Below the pieces are notes generated by a model. That model was not told the origin of the DNA. It did not search any database and saw nothing but the letters and a program-made list of their open reading frames with translations. From positions 1 through 32,760 of IMG/VR virus record IMGVR_UViG_3300042465_002830: a stretch of 32,760 nucleotides of DNA; one strand, written 5' to 3'. The position numbers were made by a program, and so were the translations under genes. Of the stretch, positions 1,300 through 25,737 are shown in pieces (the stretch's first letter is position 1; each line of letters starts with the position of its first letter). The stretch is from a virus.

Positions 1300-4200
1300 A
1301 TGGCAGTAATAAAAAAATTTGCAGAAAATCTAACAACTCCGCTTACCAATTACGGAACATTTTTAAATGATACAAATCCAAATTCGGATTATTTTAGAAT
1401 AACTGAATTTAAAGATACATTTACTGGTGGTAAGAACGGATTTCTTATAGAAGGTTCTCAGTATTTAAAAGAATCTACTGAACTTAAAGTTGAAATATTA
1501 GATGTAGAGGGTAATCCAGTATATTGGGAACCTGGTAATGGTATCCCAGAATATTATGAGGGGTTATCTAAAGTTGTTGCTGCATATATCTATGAAGATA
1601 CGCCAATTGGATTGGGTAAAATTACTATATTAGGTGAGGCAAAAACATATATAGATGCAAATGGTAATACACAAGATGTACCGGATGAATGGAAAGGAAT
1701 TTATAATTTAAAATGGGAAAGAACATTTCAAATCAATAGATTATTAAGTAACGAAGATAAAGTTAGATTTTATCGTAGACCTGAAGTATCTATAAATGAA
1801 ATAGTAAAACCAATATTTAATAATATTGTAACTGAAAAAATTCAAAAAGGTATTGCGGATGGAACTGCACAATCTCCTAGAGAGGGTGAAACATTAACTA
1901 ATTATACATTACCAACTTCATATCTACTAACAACAACAGATGATACTTTTTGGACTGGTTCTGTTATTGGTACTAATATTCAATTTACCGATTTAGGAGT
2001 TACTTTATTGGCTGATAACTTAGTAAATGATAGAAATTTAACAATATCTACCCCATATACTGTAAACGGAATTGTTACTGATTTTATAGGGCAGGGATAT
2101 ACTGCATCATTTAATTATACCGAAGGTGTTGATAATTTAAAAACAGCATTGACTGGTTCTTTTGCAAAAATAACTATATCAGATTTAACAACATTTGTTG
2201 GTGATGTTGCTAGAGTAAAAGTATTTAGAAAATCTCAATCCGATTTAGCAGATTTTCAGTTCATTCAAGAAATACAATTAGAATCAAATGAATTATTGGT
2301 TGATTTAGAATCAACAACAAAGAATCAGGAATTTTATGGATTATTTGATAATAGAAATTTTAAAAATTATTGGGTAACATCTTCAAATAATTTAACAACT
2401 GAATTTAATCAAAACTTTTTATTTAATTCCGTAAAGTTAGATGCCAATGGAGGACCTTATAGATATTTTACAACTAAGTCAATAGCAATAACAGAAAATG
2501 CAGAATATACTTTAAATTTTAATACTAGACTATTACAAAATTTAAATCCAACAAATTATATTTCCGTTTACATAAGTGGTTCTAAACAATCTACATTTGG
2601 TGGAACTACAACAAAAGTAGCAGCATCTCAAGAAATTATAAAAATATATTCTGATAATTCTTTATTACAAAAAACATCAAAAACAATTAATTTTAAAGCA
2701 GATGGATTATCCGATGCTAAATTATACTTTGATGTTAAAGGAATGGGTTGGCATATTTCAGATGTTAGTTTAAGAGCTTCACAAGAAAGTTCATTCTCAC
2801 CGGATGAAATTACATTCATACAACCTGTACCAAGAACTTTACCAAGAGAAACATTTGAATTTTTATTTCAATTCTATGATATAAACAATAACTACATTCC
2901 AGTAGTTGTTAGTGAAACCAAAACATTTGATGGTGGTAACTTGAATGTAATTAATAAAAGTATTGAATTAATTCCATCATCATTATATTTCCAATTTGAT
3001 TCTGGTTCTGGTAATGGTAATCCAGTTCCACCAACTGTTATTAATGTTGATATTAAGAAAAATTATTTAACTGGTTCTTATACATTCACATCACGCTCAT
3101 TTGATTTCTTTGGTACGGAATTATCATCATCGATGTATGCTCCAATAGTAACTCCGGGTTATTTAGGCGGACAATTCCCTGGTTATCTAATTGATAACGA
3201 TGGTAAAAATAATAACGTTATTTTAACTGTACAAAACTTTACAGGTTCAAGAGATGAAGCATTAGAAGAATTAGTAGTACAATTTATTGAATATACAGTA
3301 GAGTGTGAGGGTGTTGAAGATTCAATTGTTATTACTAGAGTTATAGATGGTAAGGGTGGTGTTAATTATGAAATTAGACCTTATGATGGAACTATTATTA
3401 GAAACTCACATCCATCATCTTCATTGGAAGTTCAGGCTATTCGTATTGATGGTGTGAATGAAGTTCTATTGCAAAGTGGGTTACCTAAAGGACGTTCAAA
3501 TACTATGTTGTACGTGCAATCTGGGTCTACTTATGTGACTTTAGAAGCTGCAAGTGCATCTCAATTCGTAAGAAGTATTCAGCCCGGCATAACTGGTTCA
3601 GGTGAAGTAAATTATAATGCAATATTCAATAGAGATTCTATAAATGGACAGTTGACATTGTATATGATACCAACGGGCTCAACAAACCCATCTGGTTCTA
3701 TTTTAACAACATTAACTCTTACTGATATTCAAGATGGTTTAGATACTGGACTTGTATTATTTGATACAAATCAATTTTCTATAAATCCAAGAACTGAAAC
3801 CAAATTTAGACCAACATACTCATCTGCAACGGCATCATTCTATCGTAGAGGTACGTTTGAAGCACCTATAAGTTGTTCATTTGAAGTATATCCATCGATG
3901 TCAATAAATAAGGATTGGGTTCCTGAATATTGGATGCACTACACTACATTTAGTTGTGCGGAAGATATAACTGTTGCTGCATATGATGAAAACGGAAAAA
4001 TAATTCCATCTAGAGCAGATGCATCTACATATAGATTGAGTTCACCACTATCTCAAAGTAAACAATTATTGGTTAGCTTTACTTATACTGAACCTTGGAC
4101 TTCGGCATCGGTATCTGTAGACCAATCATTTACAATTACGCCTGATGGTGCACCCGGCGATGAAACAATTATATTTGAAGTAGTTCCATCATCAATTACA

Positions 4201-7200
4201 TTGGGAGCAAATTCAAGAGGTATCGTTGGAGATTATAAACCATCAATTACTGATATTAAATTAAAGCAAGGTTCTAGATATCTTTCTTTTAGTGGTAGTG
4301 CCGGTGAAAATAAGTTTTCATCACATGGGCAATTTTATATAGCAACGGCTTCTATTGTTGAGAGTAATGTTAAGGCTGGTAATGTACAATTTACTTCTTC
4401 AAACGGAACGGCATATACATCTTCATTGATAGTAAGTGCATCTTCGGATTTAAGGCAATTGAGTGGAAGTATTACATATCCGTTGATTATACATCCATAT
4501 TTTACTTCATCAATTTATACGGCAAGTGTTGTTGTTAATTATACAAAAATATTAGAAGGAGCACCCCCAATTCAAGTAATTATAACACCAAACGCACCAA
4601 ATTTAAAAGCTGATGAGGTTGGGTATGTTTCAGAATATACAGCTGCTAGTACAACTATACAGGTAAAAGATGGGGATGATTTTTTAAGATTTACAACTCA
4701 ATCAACCGCACCTGGAACATTTAGAATACAAAATGGAGGGTCTGTAATAGTATCAAATATTAGAACGGGTTCGGTAGCTAGTTCATCATTTAATACTGCA
4801 ACTGTATCATTCCAAAGATTTGATTATCCATTTGTTTCTGCTAGTGCACAATATAATATTGTTGCATATCCTTACGCTTTGGGACCTGGTCACGAATATA
4901 CATCTTCTGTAATTCAAAGAACTCAAACTTTTACAAAGAATGTAGCTCCGGCAAATGCTAGAAGTGTAAATTTAAAAGCATCCTTTGATACTGTAAACTT
5001 TAATAAAGATGGAGTTGTATCTTCACCACTAGACCCTATTATTTTAACGGCAACTGCAACAAATACAACCGGAGCAGTTTGGTTTCAATTTTATAAAGAT
5101 GATACTGATTATAGTGGTATTGTTGGCGAAGATTCCCCTAATTCAAAATTTGCAACTCAAGAAATAGGTGGTGGTGATGCAACTGGACCTGGTGAAAATG
5201 CAACTTGGACTGTAAGAATTAGAGATGGTAATTCATCACCAACAGCACCAATTAGAGCAGAAAATTCTCTAACAATCGCTGGTATAAAAGCTGGAGCAGA
5301 TGCATATAAGTTAGTAGCATCAAATGAAAGTACAACAATTACTGCTGATTTGTGGAATACATCTTTTAGTGGTAGTGGTATGAAGATAACTACATTTAAA
5401 GGTACGGAGCAATTATCAAATGTTAGTACACCAACATATAATGCATCTAATGATGTTTATGATTTCTTAGGAAATTATATTGGTAATTTAGGATTTTCAT
5501 CAGCATCAATATTTTTTACATCTTCTTTTGTTACACAATCATCTAATAAATTCCCAACAAGCAATCCAGCTTCAATTGGAGATATAGCTGCATGGTACGC
5601 ACCTGCAATAAATAAAAGTGGACAAATTGTATATAAAATTGATTTTGAAAATAATAGACAAGTTCAATTTGTAACACAATCAATATCTGTACAATTCGAA
5701 CCACCAGCACCATACGATATTAAATTAACAAATGAAAATTCATCAGCAGTTTATAAAGTATCTGGGCAATTTACATTATCAAATACTGGTACTGATATTA
5801 GAGTTTATAGAGGTGGTACTGAATTAACAAACAAACCTGCTGGTTTTACAAACCCACAACGAGATGCATATGGTGTTACTGGATATCAAAATCAATGTAG
5901 AGTTTCTATATATTCAAAATCATCTCATATAACATTAGCAAATAGTTGGTTAGCTGCAAGTTACGTTACTGGAGTGCCCGCACAAATGCCAAACATAGTT
6001 GGTTGGGTAGACCCAAATACAAATCCAAATGGTGAAATTGTTTATCAAATAGAATGCGAAGGAAGGCAAACTCTTTATAAAACACAATCATTGTCTGTAC
6101 AATTTGAAGGTTCTACTGGACCTGGTATTGTAATGAGAGGTGAGTGGAATAGTTTAACAAATTATAGTGGTTCGGTTGAGACTAGAAATTTTCGTAGAGA
6201 TGCAGTAATATACGGAACTAATCCAACAACATATTATGCAGCGATTAGTGGTAGTGGGCCACAAACATATAATAAATCAGGTACTTTAGTTGGTTCAAGA
6301 GCCCCAACGGCTGGTAGTGATAATGCATGGTGGCAATTTTTGGGACAACAAGAATTCTTTGTTGCAGCTAAGATTGCAATATTTGATGAATCATTTGTAA
6401 AAAATACAATCAACGTTGGTAACAATAGTGGTAGTGCATTTGCAAACATTGTATTAGCCGGTGGTAGAGAAGACCCGTATATGGCAGTTGGACAATATAG
6501 TACAATTGGATATGGTAATAGTGGAATTTGGTTGGGTATATACGATGATGGTACAAGCGCAAGTACATTTAAACCTAGATTTTCTTTAGTTAATGGAGAT
6601 AATAGTAGGTTTATGCGATGGACGGGAACTGATTTGGAAATCAAAGGTTCTATTACCGTAACTGGTGGAGATGCTGAAACAACAAGTGGTGCACAATCTA
6701 AAGCAAATGCTGCACAAGCAAATGCAATTAGTACAGCAGGTTCAAATGCAACAACCGCACTTAATGTATTTAGTAGTTCGTTGGGAGCAATGGCTGCAAT
6801 TAATTCTATTAATAGTGGTAACGCTGTAACATATATTGGAGCTGGTTCTATTGTAACTAATATGGTTGCAACAAATTTAATACTTTCAACAAACTATTCG
6901 GCATCAATTGAAGCTGGAAACTTTTCAGATACTGGTACATTTCTTAATTTAGCAGATGGTACGATTACATCTCCTGGATTTGCAACTAAAAATGATGGAA
7001 CTGCATATTTTAAAGGAGTACTTAATTCATCTCAAGCAACATTTGGTGCGTGGACACTAAACGCACAAGCGTTCTTTATTACGGCAAATAGTAGAATTAA
7101 ATTAGATGCAGCACAGGAACAAATTCAAGTATTGGATTCGGATGGAGCAGTTAGATTTACAGCAAATACGGCATTAACATTACCAAATCCAGCCGGTGTT

Positions 7201-8340
7201 CAGGCAACTTCTGGTACACCAGGTTCCCCAACCGGAGGAACTACCACTCCATTGGTTATAACACCAACCTCAGCAACTGTTGTTAGTGAGACTAGTATTA
7301 ATGGAGATAATGATTTCTTTTATACGGGAGTTTTTCATGAATTGGGCTCATTTATATCATCAGCTAATGGAGGACAACACAATATAAGATATACATGGAA
7401 TCCATCAAGTGCATATTATTCAGGCATAGCAGAAGCTGCCGGAAATGCATATGCATCTCTTAGTGTAAGTTTAGTATTAACACCGGATGCAACAAATGAT
7501 ATTGTAGCATATGGTACATCGGATTATGCATCGGCATATGGACAAATGTATGAAGAAGGTTATGGTGGTTCATATGGTGGATTTAGAAGTTATTATGCAC
7601 AACAAAACACAGACCTTTTAATAGACCCAAAAACATATACTGTTAGTGCAACTTTAACAGCAAGTACTAGATATAGAGTAAAATTACTTGTTTCCTATAC
7701 AGTAATTGCTGATGATACCGATGGAGCTCCTTATTATGAAAATTCCTCTGCTGGTGTGGTTTACGAAGAAAACGGCGATACTGGTAGATTGGTTGTTGAA
7801 GCGGTATCGGCTGGTACTATTGTTAATGGTGGTGGTTTCCAAACGGCAGCTGGTGCTGGTAGATATTTAAAACACGCTACTAATCCTGATACAATTGGAA
7901 TATACACATATGTTGAGGGCGGATTATCTACCGATAAACATTATCATAAAGATACTGGTACTTCATTGGGTTATAATGTTGGTGGTTATCCTATGGTTAA
8001 AGGATATGCAAGATGGGCTAGTAATGTATCCCAAACTGGAGCTCCATCGATACCAACTCTACAATCTTTAGGCGGAGTTGTTACATCTTTAGCTTCAGCA
8101 GGGTCGCAAGGTGCATACAATTTAAATTTTGCATTAACAACATCAGATGGTGCTTCGCTTTCTACTATTACACCATCTGTATTTTTTACAGGAACTAGAG
8201 ATATAGCAAATCCTGTTGAATGTACATTTACTTTTGGAAAATTTGCTGGAAACAGTACTTATATAAACTTTAGAACTCAAGATAATAATACCGATGGATT
8301 ATTTAATATGGATGAAATTGGTGTAATAGTAGTAATGTAA
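1300..8340 (+). CDS. Giant virion fibre/baseplate-type protein (2,346 aa)
   Basis: A very long beta-rich, Ser/Thr/Asn/Gly-rich protein with almost no Cys and no signal peptide, typical of a phage tail fibre or baseplate appendage. The N-terminal 190 residues (FRITEFKDTFTGGKNGF, then a stretch with LGEAKTYID and EWKGIYNLKWER) look like the conserved attachment region of large fibre proteins of marine T4-like phages. Residues about 950-1330 hold Ig-like units (FEVVPSSITL, ITPNAPNLKADEVGYVSEY, LKASFDTVNFNKDG). Two tandem copies of a domain beginning YKLVASNES and YDIKLTNEN follow at about 1331 and 1470. An Ala-rich linker lies near 1790-1815, then a tail-tip-type segment (FATKNDGTAYFKGVLN) near 1890, and a C-terminal beta domain. 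It heads an operon with two small genes. Receptor-binding or baseplate role is inferred; the exact structural equivalent in T4 is unclear. Confidence 0.75.
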   Translation: MAVIKKFAENLTTPLTNYGTFLNDTNPNSDYFRITEFKDTFTGGKNGFLIEGSQYLKESTELKVEILDVEGNPVYWEPGNGIPEYYEGLSKVVAAYIYEDTPIGLGKITILGEAKTYIDANGNTQDVPDEWKGIYNLKWERTFQINRLLSNEDKVRFYRRPEVSINEIVKPIFNNIVTEKIQKGIADGTAQSPREGETLTNYTLPTSYLLTTTDDTFWTGSVIGTNIQFTDLGVTLLADNLVNDRNLTISTPYTVNGIVTDFIGQGYTASFNYTEGVDNLKTALTGSFAKITISDLTTFVGDVARVKVFRKSQSDLADFQFIQEIQLESNELLVDLESTTKNQEFYGLFDNRNFKNYWVTSSNNLTTEFNQNFLFNSVKLDANGGPYRYFTTKSIAITENAEYTLNFNTRLLQNLNPTNYISVYISGSKQSTFGGTTTKVAASQEIIKIYSDNSLLQKTSKTINFKADGLSDAKLYFDVKGMGWHISDVSLRASQESSFSPDEITFIQPVPRTLPRETFEFLFQFYDINNNYIPVVVSETKTFDGGNLNVINKSIELIPSSLYFQFDSGSGNGNPVPPTVINVDIKKNYLTGSYTFTSRSFDFFGTELSSSMYAPIVTPGYLGGQFPGYLIDNDGKNNNVILTVQNFTGSRDEALEELVVQFIEYTVECEGVEDSIVITRVIDGKGGVNYEIRPYDGTIIRNSHPSSSLEVQAIRIDGVNEVLLQSGLPKGRSNTMLYVQSGSTYVTLEAASASQFVRSIQPGITGSGEVNYNAIFNRDSINGQLTLYMIPTGSTNPSGSILTTLTLTDIQDGLDTGLVLFDTNQFSINPRTETKFRPTYSSATASFYRRGTFEAPISCSFEVYPSMSINKDWVPEYWMHYTTFSCAEDITVAAYDENGKIIPSRADASTYRLSSPLSQSKQLLVSFTYTEPWTSASVSVDQSFTITPDGAPGDETIIFEVVPSSITLGANSRGIVGDYKPSITDIKLKQGSRYLSFSGSAGENKFSSHGQFYIATASIVESNVKAGNVQFTSSNGTAYTSSLIVSASSDLRQLSGSITYPLIIHPYFTSSIYTASVVVNYTKILEGAPPIQVIITPNAPNLKADEVGYVSEYTAASTTIQVKDGDDFLRFTTQSTAPGTFRIQNGGSVIVSNIRTGSVASSSFNTATVSFQRFDYPFVSASAQYNIVAYPYALGPGHEYTSSVIQRTQTFTKNVAPANARSVNLKASFDTVNFNKDGVVSSPLDPIILTATATNTTGAVWFQFYKDDTDYSGIVGEDSPNSKFATQEIGGGDATGPGENATWTVRIRDGNSSPTAPIRAENSLTIAGIKAGADAYKLVASNESTTITADLWNTSFSGSGMKITTFKGTEQLSNVSTPTYNASNDVYDFLGNYIGNLGFSSASIFFTSSFVTQSSNKFPTSNPASIGDIAAWYAPAINKSGQIVYKIDFENNRQVQFVTQSISVQFEPPAPYDIKLTNENSSAVYKVSGQFTLSNTGTDIRVYRGGTELTNKPAGFTNPQRDAYGVTGYQNQCRVSIYSKSSHITLANSWLAASYVTGVPAQMPNIVGWVDPNTNPNGEIVYQIECEGRQTLYKTQSLSVQFEGSTGPGIVMRGEWNSLTNYSGSVETRNFRRDAVIYGTNPTTYYAAISGSGPQTYNKSGTLVGSRAPTAGSDNAWWQFLGQQEFFVAAKIAIFDESFVKNTINVGNNSGSAFANIVLAGGREDPYMAVGQYSTIGYGNSGIWLGIYDDGTSASTFKPRFSLVNGDNSRFMRWTGTDLEIKGSITVTGGDAETTSGAQSKANAAQANAISTAGSNATTALNVFSSSLGAMAAINSINSGNAVTYIGAGSIVTNMVATNLILSTNYSASIEAGNFSDTGTFLNLADGTITSPGFATKNDGTAYFKGVLNSSQATFGAWTLNAQAFFITANSRIKLDAAQEQIQVLDSDGAVRFTANTALTLPNPAGVQATSGTPGSPTGGTTTPLVITPTSATVVSETSINGDNDFFYTGVFHELGSFISSANGGQHNIRYTWNPSSAYYSGIAEAAGNAYASLSVSLVLTPDATNDIVAYGTSDYASAYGQMYEEGYGGSYGGFRSYYAQQNTDLLIDPKTYTVSATLTASTRYRVKLLVSYTVIADDTDGAPYYENSSAGVVYEENGDTGRLVVEAVSAGTIVNGGGFQTAAGAGRYLKHATNPDTIGIYTYVEGGLSTDKHYHKDTGTSLGYNVGGYPMVKGYARWASNVSQTGAPSIPTLQSLGGVVTSLASAGSQGAYNLNFALTTSDGASLSTITPSVFFTGTRDIANPVECTFTFGKFAGNSTYINFRTQDNNTDGLFNMDEIGVIVVM

Positions 8341-9279: not shown

Positions 9280-9311
9280 TTTGGTAGTTTGAGAATTATT
9301 TTGTATCTTTG
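9280..9311 (+). promoter_or_regulatory. Bacteroidetes-type primary sigma promoter of the glycosyltransferase cassette
   Basis: TTTG at 9280-9283 and TATCTTTG at 9304-9311, 20 nt apart, match the Bacteroidetes -33 TTTG / -7 TAnnTTTG promoter. The ATG follows 16 nt after the -7 box. No ATAYTTAT element lies here, so this cassette appears to be read by host polymerase and differently from its structural neighbours. Confidence 0.7.
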
Positions 9312-9327
9312 TTACAATTAATAAAAT

Positions 9328-11508
9328 ATGTCTAAAAAGAAGTTACTTTATGTTGCGCCTCACTTATCTACGGGAGGACAACCACAATACCTATATAAAC
9401 AGGTAAAACATTTTATTAAAAATTTTGATATCCAAGTTGTTGAGATAAACAACAGCGGAGGACATGCTTTTGTGGTTCAAAAAAATAGAATAAAATCATT
9501 AGTAGAGGTTCATACATTGGGAGATGATAAATCAGAAATACTTAATATAATAAGTGAATTTAAACCCGATATTATACATTTTCAGGAAATACCACAATTT
9601 GATTTAGCTCCATTTATATTAGACCAGATTTTTACAAAAGATAGAAATTATTTTATTATAGCATCTACGCATGGTTCATATACAAATCCATCGGAAATAG
9701 TTTACCACCCAGATAGATACATTTTAGTATCTGAATGGAGTAGACAAAGATTCATTGATACTGGAGTTGAAACTATGTTATGGGAATATCCAATCGAAGA
9801 ATATAAATTTGATAAAGAAGCTGCACAAAAAGAATTAGGATTTGAATCAGATTGGAAACATATTCTTAATGTTGGATTATTTGCACCAGGTAAGAACCAA
9901 GGTGAAATATTTGCATTAGCAACTCAATTGGAAAAATATAAAATTAAATTTCACTTTGTAGGAAATCAAGCTGGAAACTTTGAAGATTATTGGGCACCAT
10001 TGATGAAACACAAACCATACAATTGTGTGATATGGGGAGAGCGTGATGATGTAGATAAATTTTATGCAGCAAGTGATATGTTTTATTTTAGTTCAAAGTT
10101 GGAATTAAATCCACTTTCAATTAAGGAAGCATTAAGTTATAAACTACCATCAATATTCAGAAAACTCCACACTTATTTAGATACCTATGATAATAACCCG
10201 TTAGTAACATATATTAATGAAGATTTAAAAGCAACAAAGAAAGTTATATTAGATACACTTAACCCCGAGTTCAATGAAATTCCTGGTTGGTTTGCATATG
10301 ATGAATTATATAATGAATTTGTTAATGAAGCAAAGGATGGTGATACATTTGTAGAAGTTGGTACATGGTTTGGTAAATCAACAAATTATTTAGCAACAAA
10401 AATAAAAGAATCTAAAAAAGATATTAAGTTTATAACGGTAGATACGTTTAAGGGAACTGATAATGAGGAATTGCACCAAAATATAGTTGGAGCATTTAAC
10501 GGAGATATATTTTATGAATTCATAGATAATACAGTACTTTCAGAAAACTATGGTTCATTTGAAATAATAAAAGATACATCACATAACGCAGCTAACCAAT
10601 TTAGTAATGGTAGTATTGATTATATAATGTTAGATGCTGGGCATAGTTATGAAGATGTGAAAGATGATATTCATTTTTGGTATAACAAAGTAAAACCTGG
10701 TGGAACTATTAGTGGTGATGATTATGGTGGAAGTTTCTTTCCCGGTGTTACTCAAGCAGTTAATGAATTCTTTTATGACCAATGTACAATTGGATTTAGA
10801 AATTGGAGAAAGCAAAAACCTCGTATTCAAATAAAGCATTTATTGACTAGACCAGATGATATGAGAGAGATGGTATCTATTCAATCTCTTAAGCAATTGG
10901 AAAAATACGGAATTGTATATCAACCAATTGTTAATAAAGTATATGAGGGATTCGCACCTGCTGAAAATTGTAGAAGACCGGAGCATATAAGTAAAGATAA
11001 TAAGCCTGGTGAATTATATCCTGGTGCTGGTTTGGGTTGGATGACTGGTAGACACTATGGATGTTATTTAGCACATAGGGGAGCATTGGAAACTATGGAT
11101 ACTGAAAACTTTGATTACACTTTAATATTTGAAGCAGATGCGTTTATCTATACTGGATTAGAAGAATTTGTAGAAATTGTACATAGAGCTTGTTTTATTT
11201 CAGAAAGAGATAATGTACCATTCATTTCATTTGCAGATAATCCATCAAGAGAAAAAACAAAAATAGATGAATTATTTTCAAAAACAGCATTTAATCAGGA
11301 TTTGGCACATTGTTATTTAATTCCAAATAGAGAGAAGCAATGGTGGTTAGATAGAATACAAGATTGTGGATGGGATGTTGGTGACCTTTGGTTTAATCAC
11401 GTTTTCTATAATCATCCAAGACCTCGTTATACAACAAATAAAATGTATAGTAAACAGGCCGAAGGATATTCTCTATTGGATTTAACAGTTAAAACTTGGA
11501 ATACATGA
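9328..11508 (+). CDS. Trifunctional glycosyltransferase-methyltransferase-glycosyltransferase fusion
   Basis: A 726-residue cytoplasmic protein with three apparent domains. Residues 1-320 resemble a GT-B family 4 glycosyltransferase (LYVAPHLSTGGQPQYLYKQV at the N-terminus, LNVGLFAPGKNQGE and the donor-side region FSSKLELNPLSIKEAL). Residues about 325-480 are a class I SAM methyltransferase (motif I FVEVGTWFGKST near 340, IDYIMLDAGHSYEDV, VKPGGTISGDDY), like the Methyltransf_24 group. Residues about 500-726 resemble a GT25-type GT-A enzyme (TRPDDMREM, GRHYGCYLAH, and the DxD-like LIFEADAF at 599-606). It is driven by a host-type promoter and overlaps the next gene by ATGA. The enzyme probably builds or modifies a glycan together with the TibC-like protein downstream. 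Sugar donors and acceptor are unknown; the first two domain calls are firmer than the third. Confidence 0.8.
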   Translation: MSKKKLLYVAPHLSTGGQPQYLYKQVKHFIKNFDIQVVEINNSGGHAFVVQKNRIKSLVEVHTLGDDKSEILNIISEFKPDIIHFQEIPQFDLAPFILDQIFTKDRNYFIIASTHGSYTNPSEIVYHPDRYILVSEWSRQRFIDTGVETMLWEYPIEEYKFDKEAAQKELGFESDWKHILNVGLFAPGKNQGEIFALATQLEKYKIKFHFVGNQAGNFEDYWAPLMKHKPYNCVIWGERDDVDKFYAASDMFYFSSKLELNPLSIKEALSYKLPSIFRKLHTYLDTYDNNPLVTYINEDLKATKKVILDTLNPEFNEIPGWFAYDELYNEFVNEAKDGDTFVEVGTWFGKSTNYLATKIKESKKDIKFITVDTFKGTDNEELHQNIVGAFNGDIFYEFIDNTVLSENYGSFEIIKDTSHNAANQFSNGSIDYIMLDAGHSYEDVKDDIHFWYNKVKPGGTISGDDYGGSFFPGVTQAVNEFFYDQCTIGFRNWRKQKPRIQIKHLLTRPDDMREMVSIQSLKQLEKYGIVYQPIVNKVYEGFAPAENCRRPEHISKDNKPGELYPGAGLGWMTGRHYGCYLAHRGALETMDTENFDYTLIFEADAFIYTGLEEFVEIVHRACFISERDNVPFISFADNPSREKTKIDELFSKTAFNQDLAHCYLIPNREKQWWLDRIQDCGWDVGDLWFNHVFYNHPRPRYTTNKMYSKQAEGYSLLDLTVKTWNT

Positions 11509-12653
11509 TATACGATAATTTAAAAAAGAATATAAATCCAATTGTAAATGTTGAGAACAAAGTAGTGATACATTTTGTTAGAGGACCTTTTGTAGAAATC
11601 AAAGGAGGTAAAGTTGCTGAATACAAAGTTGAATTTATAGATAATAATACTGGTAGAATTGTTTACTCAACTACTGTTGGTAATAATTGTTGGTGTAAAT
11701 GTAGTGTTGAATATTTTGTTAATTGGAAAATTAACATATATGAAAACGGAAAAATGTGGCATCAACATTTATATAATGCAAAAGATAAAAGAATTTATAT
11801 CGCATTAGATTCAAGCGCTTTGGGTGATTCATTGTCTTGGTTTCCATATGCAGATGAGTTTAGAAAAAAACATAATTGTAAGGTAATTGTATCTACATTT
11901 ATGAATGATATGTTTATAGACAAATATCCGCAACTTGAATTTGTTAGTCCTGGCACAAATGTTTCCGATTTATACGCAATGTACAGTATTGGATTATTTT
12001 ATAATGAAGATAACAATGTAAACCAAATGAGAAATCCAATAGACCCAAAAACAGTTACATTGCAAAAAATGTGTTCTGATATTTTGGGATTGGAATACAA
12101 AGAAGTAAAACCAAAAATAAAAGATATTAAAACAAAAATAGACCCAAATCTTAAACAAGTATGTATTGGTGTATTTGGAACAGCACAATCTAAGTTTTGG
12201 AATAATCCAACCGGATGGCAGGATGTGGTAGATTGGTTAAATAATAAAGGATATACGGTAAGATTACTTTCTAAAGAGGGAGATGATTATATGGGAAATA
12301 AATTACCAAAAGGAATTATTCATCAACCAAAAGGACCTATTGAAGTAGTTATGATGGAAATGTTAAAATCAAAAGCATTCATTGGTATTGGTAGTGGGTT
12401 AAGTTGGTTAAGTTGGAGTTTAAATGTTCCTACTGTACTGATTAGTGGATTCTCATATGATTGGGCCGAAATGCAAGATTGTATTAGAATTGCAGCACCT
12501 AAAGGTAAATGTGAAGGGTGCTTTAATAGGCTTAAGTTGGATGCTGGTGATTGGAATTGGTGCCCTGACCATAAAGGTACGGAAAGACAATTCGAGTGTA
12601 CAAAATCAATAACTTCGGATATGGTAATAAAAGAATTGGAAAAATTTTTATAA
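11505..12653 (+). CDS. TibC/Aah-type autotransporter O-heptosyltransferase homologue
   Basis: A 382-residue GT-B glycosyltransferase. The ATG at 11505 overlaps the TGA of the preceding gene (ATGA), favouring it over a TTG three codons earlier and implying translational coupling. Family landmarks of the strand-loop-strand O-heptosyltransferases are clear: DSSALGDSLSWFPYADEFR (102-120), LEFVSPGTNVSDLYAMY, DILGLEYKEVKP, AQSKFWNNPTGWQDVVD, IGIGSGLSWLSW (294-304) and VLISGFS. The iron-binding cysteine motif is complete: C336, C339, C353 and C365 (CEGCFN, GDWNWCPDHKGTERQFECTK). D108 lies in the ALGD motif that carries the proposed catalytic Asp. Known members transfer heptose to Ser or Thr of AIDA-I/TibA-type adhesins in the cytoplasm. 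Here the nearest comparable substrates are the phage fibres; donor and target are inferred. Confidence 0.88.
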   Translation: MIYDNLKKNINPIVNVENKVVIHFVRGPFVEIKGGKVAEYKVEFIDNNTGRIVYSTTVGNNCWCKCSVEYFVNWKINIYENGKMWHQHLYNAKDKRIYIALDSSALGDSLSWFPYADEFRKKHNCKVIVSTFMNDMFIDKYPQLEFVSPGTNVSDLYAMYSIGLFYNEDNNVNQMRNPIDPKTVTLQKMCSDILGLEYKEVKPKIKDIKTKIDPNLKQVCIGVFGTAQSKFWNNPTGWQDVVDWLNNKGYTVRLLSKEGDDYMGNKLPKGIIHQPKGPIEVVMMEMLKSKAFIGIGSGLSWLSWSLNVPTVLISGFSYDWAEMQDCIRIAAPKGKCEGCFNRLKLDAGDWNWCPDHKGTERQFECTKSITSDMVIKELEKFL

Positions 12654-13117: not shown

Positions 13118-16027
13118 ATGAAAGGATTAGAAAAGTTTTTAGTAGAAACAATATTGGGAGAAGCGGCTCAAATGGACAAAGTAGTTGTTGTCTATTCGGG
13201 CCGCTTTCAACCATTTCATAAGGGACACTACGCAACCTATGAAAACTTAGTACGCAAATTCGGTAAGGATAGTGTATATATCGGAACTTCTAATGTTACC
13301 GATTCAAAAAAATCTCCATTTAATTTTAAGGAAAAAAAAGCAATAATGATGCAGATGTTTGGAATACCATCATCTAAAATCGTTAATATTAAAAATCCAT
13401 ATGCGCCGGAAGAAATACTAAATAAGTATGATTCTGATACAACTGGTTTAATAGTTGTAGTAGGTGAGAAGGACCAAAATCGTTTAAGCGGTAAATACTT
13501 CACTCCATATAAAGGTAAGGTAGAGCAAGGATATTTAGATAAAGGATATGTGTACGCTTCGCCGGCACAATCAAATCCTATTAGTGGTACTGATGTTCGT
13601 TATTGGTTAAGTGCTGGTAGTTCAGATGATAGAAAGAAAAACTTCACAAAAGCTTATCCTAAATTTGATTCTCAAATATTCAAATTAATTACTCTTAAGT
13701 TAAAGGGATTAAAAGAATGTATTAATGAAGAAATTAAACTAAACGTAAAAGTTGGTGATACTTTGTTAATGGGTAAATTTAAAAACAAAAAAGTAGTTGT
13801 TAAATCAATAGGTGAAGATGAATGGGGAATGCCAACAATTAATGGTAAAAAGGCAGTAACATTCAGAATACCTAAAAAAGAAAACTTAAAAGAAACTGCA
13901 TCCAATGGTGGGTTTAGAGGACAAGATGAGCCTGATACATCATTTGTAGCAGATGGACAACCTAGAATATTGAATAAAGCTAAGCCTGAAGGTTGGTATA
14001 AGCAAGGTGGATATACTCAAATGGATACTCCTAAAGCAGACGCTATGAGAGGTAGGGGAAAATCAAAAGATACAGAAACTCAATTCAGAAAAGCATATTA
14101 TAAACTTAAAAATGTAACACAAAGTACATTAAACCCAGCCGATGACCCATTTAAGGTAGAAGACTGGCAGGATGCATATAGAGAAAATCCTAACGAAAAA
14201 CCTAAAAGATTTTGGGAATTGCCTGATAATCAAAAAAATACAATAATTTCAAAAGAAGATATTAAAGAAATAGTTTCCGATTTTGATTCTATATTAGATG
14301 AGATGGGACTTGGTGGTGGAGCTGGTGTAGGTTTAAGTTTGCCGGGTGGATATATTAATGGAGCACCAAAAGCTGATGATGTTAAGAAGGTTAGTAAGAA
14401 ACTTAACAACAAAGGAATGAGTGGTTATGAAGAAATTGATGAAGATAATATTCCTGGTGGTTTGGCAAAAGGATTGACACTAAACGATATTGCGGAGAAG
14501 CATGGTGTTAGTGTTGATATTATGGTAGCTCAATTTAAAAAAGGAATATCAGTTGAAATGGAACATACAACCGATAGAGAGATTGCAAAAGAAATAGCAT
14601 TAGACCATTTATTTGAAGACCCTAAGTATTACGATAAGTTAGCTAAAATAGAAAATCCAACAAACGAAGGATTAAAAGATTTAGAGAAAGAACTTGTAGT
14701 ATTATATAATAAGGCTTTTAAGATGATGCCAATGTCTCCGGCACAAATGAAAGTTAGAGCTGAGATAGACAAACTTAAAAAACAAATAGATTCATTAAAG
14801 AAAGAATCAGTAAACGAATCATTATTATTAGAAGGTGGGGCTTATGGACATATGAATCATCCGTTTGATATTGAAATGAATCTTACATTTGGTGATTTAA
14901 AACAAATTGTGGTAAGAGCACTTAATGGTGATTTAGAATTAGCAAGAGAGAAGACTGATGGACAGGCATTGGCAGTTAGTTGGGTAAATGGGAGATTGGT
15001 TGCGGCTCGTAACAAATCACACCTAAAGAACAAAGGGGCTGGTGCTATGACAATAGGACAAGTAGCAGATAAGTTTGCTGGTAGAGGTGGATTAACCGAT
15101 GCTTATAACTTCGCTATGCAAGATTTATCTAAAGCAATTGCAGCCCTATCAGAATCTCAACGTAAGAAGATATTTAAGGATGGTAGTTCGTTTATGAATT
15201 TGGAAGTAATATATCCAACCTCTGTAAATGTAATCCCTTACAATCAACCCCTATTGGTATTTCATGGTACATTTGATTATGATATCGATGGTACTATTGT
15301 AGGTGAGAACCAACAAGCGGCATCTATATTAGGTGGTATGATTAAGCAAGTAAATGCACATGTTCAATCTAAGTACACAATACAAGGACCTCCAATAAGC
15401 AAACTTCCTAAATCAGAACACCTTTCTAAATTGCAAGGGAAGTATTTAGGAATGATTTCTAAATTACAATCTGAATTTGCATTACATGATTCGGATGGTG
15501 TTGCTGATTATCACCAAGCTTGGTGGACTGACTTTGTAGAAAAGAAAGCTAAGAAATTAGATTATCAACAAAAAATAGGATTAGTTAAGAGATGGGCTTT
15601 TGGTGACAAGAGTTTCCGTATAGCAACAATAACTGATGACAAGATAAGAGCTTGGGCTGACCAAACTGATAAGCAGGACCAACAAAAAATAGGAAAGCAA
15701 AACCTAATGAGATTTGAGGAGATATTTTTAGGAGTTGGTGCGGATGTATTATCCTTTATGGACTCGGTTCTTACAGCAAACCCTGATAGTGCTAAAAGAC
15801 AAATGGTAGCTCGTTTACAATCAACTATATCTCAAGTAAAAGCAAGTGGAGACCCTAAGAAAATTGAAAAATTAAAATTAGAATTATCTCGCTTAAATGC
15901 ACTTGGTGGATTTGAAAAAATTGTACCAAATGAAGGTATTGTATTTGTCTATGGTGGTAACACTTACAAATTAACAGGTGCATTCGCACCCCTAAATCAA
16001 ATTTTAGGAATATTTTTCGATAAATAA
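13118..16027 (+). CDS. 969-aa multidomain protein: HxGH nucleotidyltransferase plus KxDG ligase-like domain
   Basis: Residues 20-165 are a cytidylyltransferase/NMN adenylyltransferase-type domain: VVVVYSGRFQPFHKGH (HxGH at 34-37), and ISGTDVR at 155-161 as the second nucleotide-binding motif. A small beta domain (205-255) follows. Near 470-520 a region reading VEMEHTTDREIAKEIALDHL resembles the phage DUF5661 family. The C-terminal part (573-969) holds EKTDGQALAV (K612, D614, G615), NLEVIYP (E696) and LLVFHGTFDYD, consistent with a nucleotidyltransferase/ligase-superfamily fold with K612 as candidate nucleotidyl lysine. T4 prohead-protease-like sites (L/I-x-E before A/G) occur at ILGE15/A16 and LLLE572/G573. 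An alternative start at 13172 gives MDKVVVVYSG. It may be a head-packaged enzyme or precursor; substrates are unknown. Confidence 0.72.
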   Translation: MKGLEKFLVETILGEAAQMDKVVVVYSGRFQPFHKGHYATYENLVRKFGKDSVYIGTSNVTDSKKSPFNFKEKKAIMMQMFGIPSSKIVNIKNPYAPEEILNKYDSDTTGLIVVVGEKDQNRLSGKYFTPYKGKVEQGYLDKGYVYASPAQSNPISGTDVRYWLSAGSSDDRKKNFTKAYPKFDSQIFKLITLKLKGLKECINEEIKLNVKVGDTLLMGKFKNKKVVVKSIGEDEWGMPTINGKKAVTFRIPKKENLKETASNGGFRGQDEPDTSFVADGQPRILNKAKPEGWYKQGGYTQMDTPKADAMRGRGKSKDTETQFRKAYYKLKNVTQSTLNPADDPFKVEDWQDAYRENPNEKPKRFWELPDNQKNTIISKEDIKEIVSDFDSILDEMGLGGGAGVGLSLPGGYINGAPKADDVKKVSKKLNNKGMSGYEEIDEDNIPGGLAKGLTLNDIAEKHGVSVDIMVAQFKKGISVEMEHTTDREIAKEIALDHLFEDPKYYDKLAKIENPTNEGLKDLEKELVVLYNKAFKMMPMSPAQMKVRAEIDKLKKQIDSLKKESVNESLLLEGGAYGHMNHPFDIEMNLTFGDLKQIVVRALNGDLELAREKTDGQALAVSWVNGRLVAARNKSHLKNKGAGAMTIGQVADKFAGRGGLTDAYNFAMQDLSKAIAALSESQRKKIFKDGSSFMNLEVIYPTSVNVIPYNQPLLVFHGTFDYDIDGTIVGENQQAASILGGMIKQVNAHVQSKYTIQGPPISKLPKSEHLSKLQGKYLGMISKLQSEFALHDSDGVADYHQAWWTDFVEKKAKKLDYQQKIGLVKRWAFGDKSFRIATITDDKIRAWADQTDKQDQQKIGKQNLMRFEEIFLGVGADVLSFMDSVLTANPDSAKRQMVARLQSTISQVKASGDPKKIEKLKLELSRLNALGGFEKIVPNEGIVFVYGGNTYKLTGAFAPLNQILGIFFDK

Positions 16028-24414: not shown

Positions 24415-25737
24415 ATGATTAAGCCTTTCTCAATATTAGATACCCGAACTAAAGAATGGCAGGACCGTAAGAGGTACTGGATACAAACCTACAATATTCA
24501 ATCAGAATTGGGTAGGGAAGATATCGAAAGTAGAGCCCGTTTCTGGGAAGATAATACAATTTCAATATTCGATGCAACCCTTTGTGAACATATGTATCAA
24601 TGGTTCACTCCAAAGCAAGGTAAGGTTTTAGACCCATTTGCCGGCGGAAGTGTTAGGGGTATTGTGGCAACTGAAATGGGATATGAATATATGGGTATTG
24701 ATTTATCTAAAACTCAAATAGAGGAAAATAGAAAGCAATCTGATAAACCAAAATGGGTAACTGGTGATAGTGATGATATGTTAAATTATTTAGGTGATGA
24801 ACAATTTGATTTTGTTTTTACTTGCCCACCTTATTATGATTTAGAAGTATATAGTAATAATCCATTGGATATATCAACTATGGAAGATACGGAGTTTGAT
24901 GAGAAATATTTCAGTATCTTAGGAAAGGCTGCAAAAAAGTTAAAGAACAATAGATTCTTTGCAGTAGTAGTATCCGAAGTAAGAGAGCAATCACTAACTG
25001 GAAATTATAAAATTGGAAAATATAGAGGATTGGTAAACAAAACAATCCAAGCGTGTGAGGAAGCTGGACTACACTTCTATAACGATATGATTTTATTTAA
25101 TTCACAACATCAGGCTGCTAGAGTGGTTGATACCTACTTCAAAAGAAATCGTAAGGTAGCATCGGTTCATCAAAACATATTAGTATTTGTAAAAGGAAAC
25201 CCTGATATTGCGGCAGAAGATATTGAATTCGATGGAACTTATCAATGTGTGGTAGATGGTGTGAAATACAAATCATTTAGAGAAGCGGCAATTTCAATAG
25301 ACCCAAATACATTAGTAGCTACCGAAGTTGAAAGAAGATGCCGTTCAACTAAATCCAAGTACAAAGAGTGGCAAATCATTGGTGGGGAAACAAAACCACA
25401 AATTAAATACGAAGTTGATGATATTCCTTTTGAGAATCCAAAACAAATAGCAGAGTTGATTGGTGGTGATATGACCGAATCAATGGTTAGAAACTACATA
25501 GAATCAAACAATCCCAAATACCGTCATTGGAAGAAAGTAGATGGTTGGGATATCACCTACGAACAAATGCAAGATTTGTGGGAAAGAAACATTACATTAG
25601 AATTACCTATCATTAGTTGTGATGGTAAAGAATTTTATTCAATTATAGATGCAGCCAACCACTTTGGTTGTTCAGATGAGCGTATTCGCCAAAAACTTAA
25701 ATCAGATAAGCATTCTGGATTTATTTATCTTTTCTAA
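24415..25737 (+). CDS. DNA methyltransferase with NUMOD-like DNA-binding repeats
   Basis: A 440-residue protein. Residues 1-265 are an amino-methyltransferase of DNA: SAM motif I VLDPFAGGSVRG (71-82), YMGIDLS (92-98), and motif IV TCPPYYDLE (136-144), with order I then IV. Residues 277-440 hold three related segments of about 45 residues, each a short strand pair followed by helices: near 277 (VVDGVKYKSFREAAISI), near 331 (YEVDDIPFENPKQIAELIG) and near 398 (ISCDGKEFYSIIDAANHFG). They resemble NUMOD1-type modules of homing endonucleases. The gene is isolated by terminators on both sides, with little spacing before its ATG, and interrupts the head block between gp21 and gp22: a cargo gene. A role in protecting phage DNA from restriction is likely; target sequence and N6 or N4 chemistry are unknown. 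Confidence 0.82.
   Translation: MIKPFSILDTRTKEWQDRKRYWIQTYNIQSELGREDIESRARFWEDNTISIFDATLCEHMYQWFTPKQGKVLDPFAGGSVRGIVATEMGYEYMGIDLSKTQIEENRKQSDKPKWVTGDSDDMLNYLGDEQFDFVFTCPPYYDLEVYSNNPLDISTMEDTEFDEKYFSILGKAAKKLKNNRFFAVVVSEVREQSLTGNYKIGKYRGLVNKTIQACEEAGLHFYNDMILFNSQHQAARVVDTYFKRNRKVASVHQNILVFVKGNPDIAAEDIEFDGTYQCVVDGVKYKSFREAAISIDPNTLVATEVERRCRSTKSKYKEWQIIGGETKPQIKYEVDDIPFENPKQIAELIGGDMTESMVRNYIESNNPKYRHWKKVDGWDITYEQMQDLWERNITLELPIISCDGKEFYSIIDAANHFGCSDERIRQKLKSDKHSGFIYLF

Follow-up and report, generated by a model that had tools for sequence, protein, structure and literature searches.

A phage protein joining GT4-type, methyltransferase and GT25-like domains, coupled to a TibC-type gene: a candidate module for protein O-glycosylation

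The stretch of DNA analysed here, called the window, is a complete IMG/VR virus record (IMGVR_UViG_3300042465_002830, 32760 bases) from an uncultured aquatic phage whose genes are T4-like. At positions 9328-11508 it encodes a single protein in which a GT4-type glycosyltransferase (GT), a class I methyltransferase (MT) and a GT25-like domain follow one another. A reading of the sequence alone had proposed these three domains and had suggested that one polypeptide assembles a methylated, possibly capped, oligosaccharide in sequential steps. The domains are present in that order, an assignment that we regard as close to certain since profiles, predicted structure and conservation agree on it. Beyond what that reading held, the gene has a TibC-type protein O-heptosyltransferase gene coupled to it, joined in many relatives by HldE-like genes. 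On balance, we favour the interpretation that these genes form a phage-encoded protein O-glycosylation module with a three-site glycan assembly enzyme. The features of the fusion protein are as follows (rows are those of the 84-row alignment described below).

9328..11508, + strand: GT4-MT-GT25-like fusion protein, 726-aa open reading frame (ORF), supported by profiles, an AlphaFold model and relatives
9328..10272, + strand: GT4-type GT-B domain, residues ~1-315, from Pfam, fold match and EX7E motif
10102..10128, + strand: EX7E motif of the GT4 domain (E259, E267), kept in 84/84 rows
10291..10797, + strand: Methyltransf_24/TylF-like class I methyltransferase domain, residues ~322-490, from Pfam and fold match
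10348..10383, + strand: S-adenosylmethionine (SAM) motif I, FVEVGTWFGKST, residues 341-352, with G345 and G349 in 84/84 rows
10816..11505, + strand: GT25-like GT-A domain, residues ~497-726, from a fold match to COLGALT1, with Pfam below cut-off
11059..11076, + strand: GCYLAH motif of the GT25-like domain, residues 578-583, with G578, C579 and H583 in 84/84 rows
11122..11145, + strand: LIFEADAF, ExD metal-site candidate of the GT-A domain, residues 599-606, with F601, E602, A603 and D604 in 84/84 rows

All the motifs on which the sequence-only reading had relied, namely a GT-B donor-side pattern, SAM motif I, GCYLAH and LIFEADAF, are found in the ORF. The donor-side pattern consists of the EX7E pair E259/E267 together with G188-K189-N190. 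Two Pfam profiles exceeded their cut-offs: Glycos_transf_1 (PF00534) at residues 162-282 (E 1.5e-8, 34.8 bits against 26.4) and Methyltransf_24 (PF13578) at residues 342-466 (E 1.8e-18, 67.8 bits against 26.3). TylF (PF05711) scored 21.0 bits on the methyltransferase domain, under its cut-off of 23, and we therefore name this domain only TylF-like. Likewise, we call the C-terminal domain GT25-like because Glyco_transf_25 (PF01755), at residues 572-617, reached 17.1 bits (E 0.0051), under the cut-off of 24. Searches of PDB sequences gave no relative of the C-terminal domain profile and only three weak relatives of the full fusion (E >= 0.19), so that the C-terminal assignment needed structure.

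A full-length AlphaFold model of the fusion was built from 32 sequences (predicted local distance difference test score, pLDDT, 84.5; predicted template modelling score, pTM, 0.68). Foldseek searches of the PDB with the whole model returned GT4 enzymes (BshA 5d01, E 3.1e-12) and MeT1 (6g80, E 9.1e-8), as well as COLGALT1 (9evj, E 1.4e-8) in a match scattered along the chain with a root-mean-square deviation (rmsd) of 22. By VIA, the domain assigned to GT4, a family of retaining GT-B enzymes, matched (over residues 3-313) HepE 4xsu_B (Z 22.7, 291 residues, 3.2 A), with further GT-B matches to SdgB 7vfo_A (Z 20.4), GtfA 4pqg_A (Z 19.7) and 1y6f_A (Z 19.0), the last of which we take to be T4 alpha-glucosyltransferase. 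The top PDB match of the middle domain was MeT1, presumably a mycobacterial sugar O-methyltransferase (6g80_M, Z 19.1, 190 residues, chiefly in this domain). A SAM pocket in this domain, which the earlier reading required, is supported by a match to MeT1 in its SAM complex (6g7d, Z 18.6, 179 residues, 2.6 A); the aligned MeT1 ranges run from 314-315 to 620-625, and thus include a few residues outside the methyltransferase domain.

The VIA list for the whole model was filled by matches to the GT4 domain, and the lack of a GT25 match in it is therefore uninformative. Modelled alone (20 sequences, pLDDT 87.5, pTM 0.86), the C-terminal domain adopts a GT-A fold, as the earlier reading required, and the GT25 enzyme COLGALT1 (9evj_A) ranked first both in Foldseek (E 1.1e-8) and in VIA (Z 16.7, 204 residues, 3.2 A). 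This fold match resolves the weak Glyco_transf_25 profile call. The next VIA matches were N-acetylglucosaminyltransferase I (GnT-I, a GT-A enzyme; Z 15.5) and mimivirus R655 (Z 14.4), and 2p73, a capsid-glycosylating GT of PBCV-1 which we assume to be domain 1 of A064R, was a moderate match (Z 12.1).

The same fusion was found in 80 other viral contigs at 60-95% identity, each match lying on one ORF, and hence the protein is no chance frame. These are the best 80 of 89 viral-contig relatives; with the window's own they make a set of 81 loci, and in four of the relatives (L053, L061, L066, L078) the fusion is clipped by the contig end. Three rounds of scanning viral contigs yielded 200 ORFs with the domains ordered GT4-MT-GT25, 190 of them complete. 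Because the same contigs recur between scans, only 83 of the 190 are distinct, and the alignment of 84 rows holds these 83, the window included, and the window a second time.

Besides the residues marked in the list above, K189, H576 and D686 were invariant in all 84 rows, as were the acidic metal-site candidates of the methyltransferase, D436, D464 and D465. In the GT25-like domain the acidic metal motif E602-A603-D604, which replaces DxD, was likewise found in every row. The methyltransferase loop positions M434, G438, H439 and Y441 are variable: G438 is Asp in four rows, and H439 is kept in 80, gapped in three and Asn in one. The fusions of L055, L062 and L063 lack the G438-H439 loop. Because this loop is gapped or substituted in some rows, a few of the methyltransferases, such as these three, may have lost or changed activity. 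In a check for domain swapping, the pairwise identities of the three domains correlated at 0.70-0.81 between fusions, with some discordant pairs.

In the collection of isolated and named phages, no match covered 80% of the full fusion. The best one was to LR756501, an uncultured phage of 735 kb, and LR756503 matched in the same way. Bacterial and archaeal genome contigs yielded no relative with the full or the C-terminal alignment. Since that search used only two short patterns per alignment, a distant host relative is possible. Two cyanophage proteins annotated as 'DNA methyltransferase', in L083 (NC_047713) and L084 (NC_048102), match the methyltransferase domain of the fusion. The label on these proteins and on PHROG 2675 may be wrong, since the matching domain is of the Methyltransf_24 type.

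Directly behind the fusion gene lies the second component.

11505..12653, + strand: TibC-type (BAHT) protein O-heptosyltransferase gene; ATG at 11505 is the chosen start, and the mechanical ORF starts at TTG 11496

The start of this gene overlaps the stop of the fusion gene as ATGA (11505-11508). While the precise overlap varies, ATGA ending the fusion in 18 of the 81 loci, adjacency of the two genes is conserved: a TibC-like ORF directly follows the fusion in 80 of the 81, and the remaining locus (L061) stops inside the fusion. The window's protein scored 285.9 bits against NCBIfam TIGR04414 (autotransporter strand-loop-strand O-heptosyltransferase), above the cut-off of 200, and a four-sequence profile (A3) of the TibC-like family found TibC in the PDB (4rap, E 9.7e-82). 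As a control, TIGR04414 matched one of 14 well-known genomes and none above its cut-off.

An alignment of TibC-like proteins comprised 119 rows: 118 distinct stretches (>250 bits, >330 aa), among them the window's, and a second copy of the window's. Invariant in all 119 were D111, T229, K233, W304, C339, C342, C356 and C368; mapped by hand on the profile alignment, their equivalents in TibC are D110, T226, K230, W305 and cysteines 339, 342, 358 and 370. The TibC study describes a catalytic Asp, sugar-binding residues T226, K230, R286 and W305, and iron-finger cysteines 339, 342, 358 and 370, in an enzyme that heptosylates bacterial autotransporters and adhesins (PMC4358343). The neighbour gene thus resembles the TibC/BAHT family of TIGR04414 in its curated score, the catalytic Asp, two donor residues, the Trp and four iron-finger cysteines. 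It differs from that family in being phage-borne, in the replacement of R286 in most rows and in its coupling to a GT4-MT-GT25 protein. Enzymes of the family form dodecamers with ferric ions and transfer heptose to the passenger of an autotransporter; we identified no autotransporter in this analysis. Judged by sequence, the presence of this gene suggests protein glycosylation.

We also scanned viral contigs with the TibC-like family as the starting point, which gave at least 80 loci; the following counts are among the matches listed. Upstream of the TibC-like gene we observed an uncut fusion in 44 of 80, a cut fusion in two, cut remnants in two (GT25 in one, MT-GT25 in the other), a GT4-GT25 protein without methyltransferase in two, and an ORF matching only the GT4 profile in seven. 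Four further loci hold GT4-TibC fusions, one of them cut, and in one (L219) a GT4 gene precedes a 1105-aa TibC-MT-GT25 ORF. The TibC ORF is longer than 450 aa and has no relative within 60 nt in 13 loci, several of which (L223, L226, L227, L231, L232, L234) carry a GT4-bearing ORF further upstream; five loci start too close to judge. Among more distant TibC loci, Pfam identified FkbM and CmcI methyltransferases and family-2 glycosyltransferases as other partners. In LR756501, GT4 and GT25-like parts are fused without a methyltransferase beside a fusion of a group-1 glycosyltransferase with TibC. The same phage encodes, on the strand opposite the two glycosyltransferase fusions, a 695-aa collagen-like protein with long Ser/Thr-Gly repeats (L082:3818-5905), a possible glycan acceptor.

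Because distant phages re-fuse or drop domains, some of them leaving out the methyltransferase, the methyltransferase is dispensable, one member of a shuffling set of domains that accompanies TibC. The earlier idea of a methyl cap as the required end step is accordingly doubtful, given that GT4 and GT25 are joined with no methyltransferase between them in L185, L194, L234 and L082.

The TibC gene is followed, in many relatives, by a pair of ORFs ~128 and 246 aa long. NCBIfam ranked rfaE_dom_II (95.6 bits) first for one and rfaE_dom_I (91.4 bits) first for the other. Each resembles one half of HldE, the ADP-heptose synthase, the first being heptose-1-P adenylyltransferase-like and the second heptose-7-P kinase-like. 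One such pair lies right behind the TibC gene at L018:9320-10439. Four of the 81 loci have no room for the pair and one has no TibC gene, leaving 76, of which 46 have the pair, two more have the adenylyltransferase-like gene alone and 28 have neither. In the TibC scan, the kinase-like gene was present in 28 of 46 loci with the fusion versus 2 of 34 without it (three of the 34 lack room). We also searched 15 large phage records, picked because they already held one of the analysed loci. The rfaE_dom_II and rfaE_dom_I models each matched 11 of the 15, in different sets of 11; TIGR04414 matches in all 15 by construction and was not used as evidence for linkage or frequency.

The candidate acceptor lies upstream of the fusion gene.

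1300..8340, + strand: fibre-like gene, 2346 aa, putative in both name and role

Size, composition and position led us to call this protein fibre-like; its Ser+Thr content is 20.9%, compared with 9.7-17.1% in six other window proteins. Within the family, a fibre-like gene lies upstream of the fusion/TibC-like pair (a homologue was seen in 55 of the 81 loci), and packaging and head genes lie downstream. Position and composition, though weak evidence, make the fibre-like protein the most likely acceptor.

TibC modifies Ser residues inside the cytoplasm. Enzymes of the GT4 and GT25 families take sugars one at a time from nucleotide donors, and those resembling TylF and MeT1 put methyl groups on the hydroxyls of sugars. 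In the mechanism that we propose, the HldE-like genes, where relatives have them, would supply the donor for the TibC-type enzyme, which would prime Ser residues of a virion protein with a heptose-like sugar. Within the fusion, the GT4 and GT25-like domains would then add one further sugar each, and the middle domain would O-methylate one of the sugars, giving a short methylated O-glycan on the virion, produced in the host cytoplasm. Sequential assembly of a methylated saccharide by the fusion is the best reading of the modelled domains. We consider it fairly likely that the target is a virion protein, while for heptose as the first sugar we would give even chances.

Several observations weigh against this proposal. 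TibC's sugar-binding R286 corresponds to V285 in the window and is Arg in just one of the 119 rows (LR756501). Because it is replaced in the other 118, the donor may, by sequence, differ from TibC's heptose; the other three sugar-binding positions (T226, K230, W305) have invariant counterparts. No HldE-like gene was seen in the window by tblastn (no match better than E 0.14), both HldE-like proteins fall under the curated equivalog cut-offs, and a search for gmhA found it in none of the 15 large phage records. In control genomes, rfaE_dom_I matched 14 of 14 (two over cut-off) and rfaE_dom_II 11 of 14 (three over cut-off); because the same models match most control genomes, rfaE matches alone are unspecific, and it is the position beside TibC, not the match itself, that speaks for heptose. 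As to the acceptor, a homologue of the fibre-like protein was seen upstream of the fusion in only 55 of the 81 loci, partly because the flanks are short. The label of this protein comes from its size, composition and position, as a PHROG search gave no match and Pfam and NCBIfam gave weak, unrelated matches below cut-off, with no known acceptor repeat. At E 0.01, the immuto phages and LR756508, relatives of the window phage introduced below, had no TibC match, and thus the TibC module is not required by this phage type as a whole. Finally, acceptor, sugars and methylated product are all inferred.

The enzymes could instead act on DNA, placing sugars on modified phage bases and so blocking restriction. 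The GT-B matches do include 1y6f_A (Z 19.0), taken to be the T4 enzyme, and seven of the 15 large records have a gene of the thymidylate-synthase family, a count that decides nothing since this family includes ordinary ThyA. Phage glycosyltransferases with a DNA-modifying role are indeed known (cited in PMC12619734). However, the partner belongs to the TibC type, a family of protein glycosyltransferases, and its gene lies near packaging and head genes. Protein glycosyltransferases, SdgB and GtfA, are also among the GT4 matches, although so common a fold as GT4 is little guide in either direction. We therefore consider DNA hypermodification improbable.

Alternatively, the phage might remodel the host surface, altering O-antigen or capsule to shut out competing phages, which is how glycosyltransferases in the host-recognition region of pelagimyophages have been read (PMC7029224). 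This seems unlikely here, given that TibC-type enzymes modify proteins (PMC4358343) and that no lipid-carrier enzyme was found among the scanned window proteins, whole genomes not having been searched for one. About the same low probability attaches to a target that is a host protein or a non-virion phage protein: TibC modifies bacterial adhesins, according to the same source, and nothing in our data names the acceptor, but across the family the module sits between fibre-like and packaging genes, a setting that favours glycosylation of a virion protein.

Enzymes of this kind are known from other systems. As described in the available part of PMC9614988, A064R of PBCV-1 carries two glycosyltransferases and a methyltransferase in one chain, has been assayed, and acts on the glycan of the major capsid protein. 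A064R is thus like the fusion in having two glycosyltransferases and one methyltransferase per virus-encoded chain, and it builds and methylates the end of the glycan. It is unlike the GT-MT-GT fusion in its order, GT-GT-MT, in making an N-glycan in a eukaryotic host, in a second domain that is called a new GT family, and in that the same part of PMC9614988 gives it no TibC-type partner. WsaE of Geobacillus stearothermophilus is a soluble trifunctional methyltransferase with two glycosyltransferases that makes and terminates a glycan which ends up on protein (PMC2943079, available part). In contrast to the fusion, its methyltransferase is N-terminal, the S-layer rhamnan is exported before its transfer to protein, and that part of PMC2943079 describes no TibC-type partner. 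By composition, the modelled fusion is an enzyme of the A064R/WsaE type, which denotes a kind, not a sequence family. As to the suggestion that the architecture was undescribed for a phage, the open-licence literature that we searched contained no phage description of such an enzyme or of GT4-MT-GT25 with TibC and HldE, and nothing pairing an O-heptosyltransferase with a bacteriophage; the kind is known from the chlorovirus and the bacterial enzyme.

Related proteins in other phages are also present in the databases. Microcystis phage Mel-JY01 encodes a 1226-aa protein (WWT39291.1, L085:4750-8430, annotated 'methyltransferase FkbM') with a group-1 glycosyltransferase, a C-terminal TibC-like domain and, between those parts, a weak Methyltransf_24 match (16.8 bits against a cut-off of 26.3). 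As in the window, its slot has a structural protein upstream and a cytidylyltransferase and terminase downstream; unlike in the window, TibC is fused in, and profiles made from the fusion's domains did not detect the other parts. A Foldseek search of BFVD, which holds predicted viral structures, with the whole model gave as its first match A0A7S9XE01 from Virus NIOZ-UU157, a glycosyltransferase of 985 aa (E 3.1e-30, 656 columns, 24% identity), whose domains align singly, as the global rmsd of 25.9 indicates. Later matches were multidomain glycosyltransferase/methyltransferase proteins of phages and giant viruses; a similar fusion may already lie undescribed in the databases. Virion glycosylation in mycobacteriophages has reportedly been treated by Freeman et al. 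in 2023. Moraphages, which are large aquatic phages near the ERM phages with mostly predicted Bacteroidota hosts, have four core groups of putative glycosyltransferases, and virion glycosylation is among the possible roles considered for such enzymes; the main text of that paper contains neither 'methyltransferase' nor 'heptosyltransferase' as a word (PMC12619734).

Other genes recognised by protein scans of the window include SbcC-like, terminase, portal, head protease and major head protein genes. By terminase, the immuto phages of Flavobacterium (57% identity) and Microcystis phage Mel-JY01 (55%) are the nearest annotated relatives; by capsid, the nearest is the uncultured phage LR756508, the best match of the window's major capsid protein (54% identity) and possibly one of the ERM phages of the moraphage paper. 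Given these relatives, a Bacteroidota host is likely.

Upstream of the fusion gene there is a possible promoter.

9280..9311, + strand: TTTG-N20-TATCTTTG, a possible promoter of Bacteroidota type whose end is 16 nt from the fusion ATG

The site follows a consensus for Bacteroidota promoters. The pattern was not enriched in the window (four found versus 3.05 expected), nor was the T4-type late promoter core, and we offer the promoter only as a suggestion. Two further window genes encode composite proteins. The 969-aa protein at 13118-16027 has an N-terminal nicotinamide mononucleotide (NMN)/cytidylyltransferase-like domain, a central DUF5661 and, in its C-terminal part, a KTDG stretch resembling ligase motif I; its uncut relatives in the loci are mostly ~790 to 1100 aa long. 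At 24415-25737 lies a DNA methyltransferase whose C-terminus is like the I-TevI DNA-binding domain (25.3 against a Pfam cut-off of 27).

More tentatively, with odds that we put somewhat short of even, large Bacteroidota phages may own an O-heptosylation system, in which ADP-heptose genes would feed TibC-type priming of tail fibre Ser residues, the fusion would finish a methylated glycan, and domains would be reshuffled to alter the sugar coat and hence host recognition or exposure. If the proposed module is real, these phages would start, extend and methylate a protein glycan, often with candidate donor genes alongside, and the make-up of the glycan would evolve through domain shuffling. The TibC family, described for bacterial adhesins, would gain a new setting, and phage virion glycosylation a traceable enzymology. 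It would then be possible to test whether sugar coats tune host range or shield virions.

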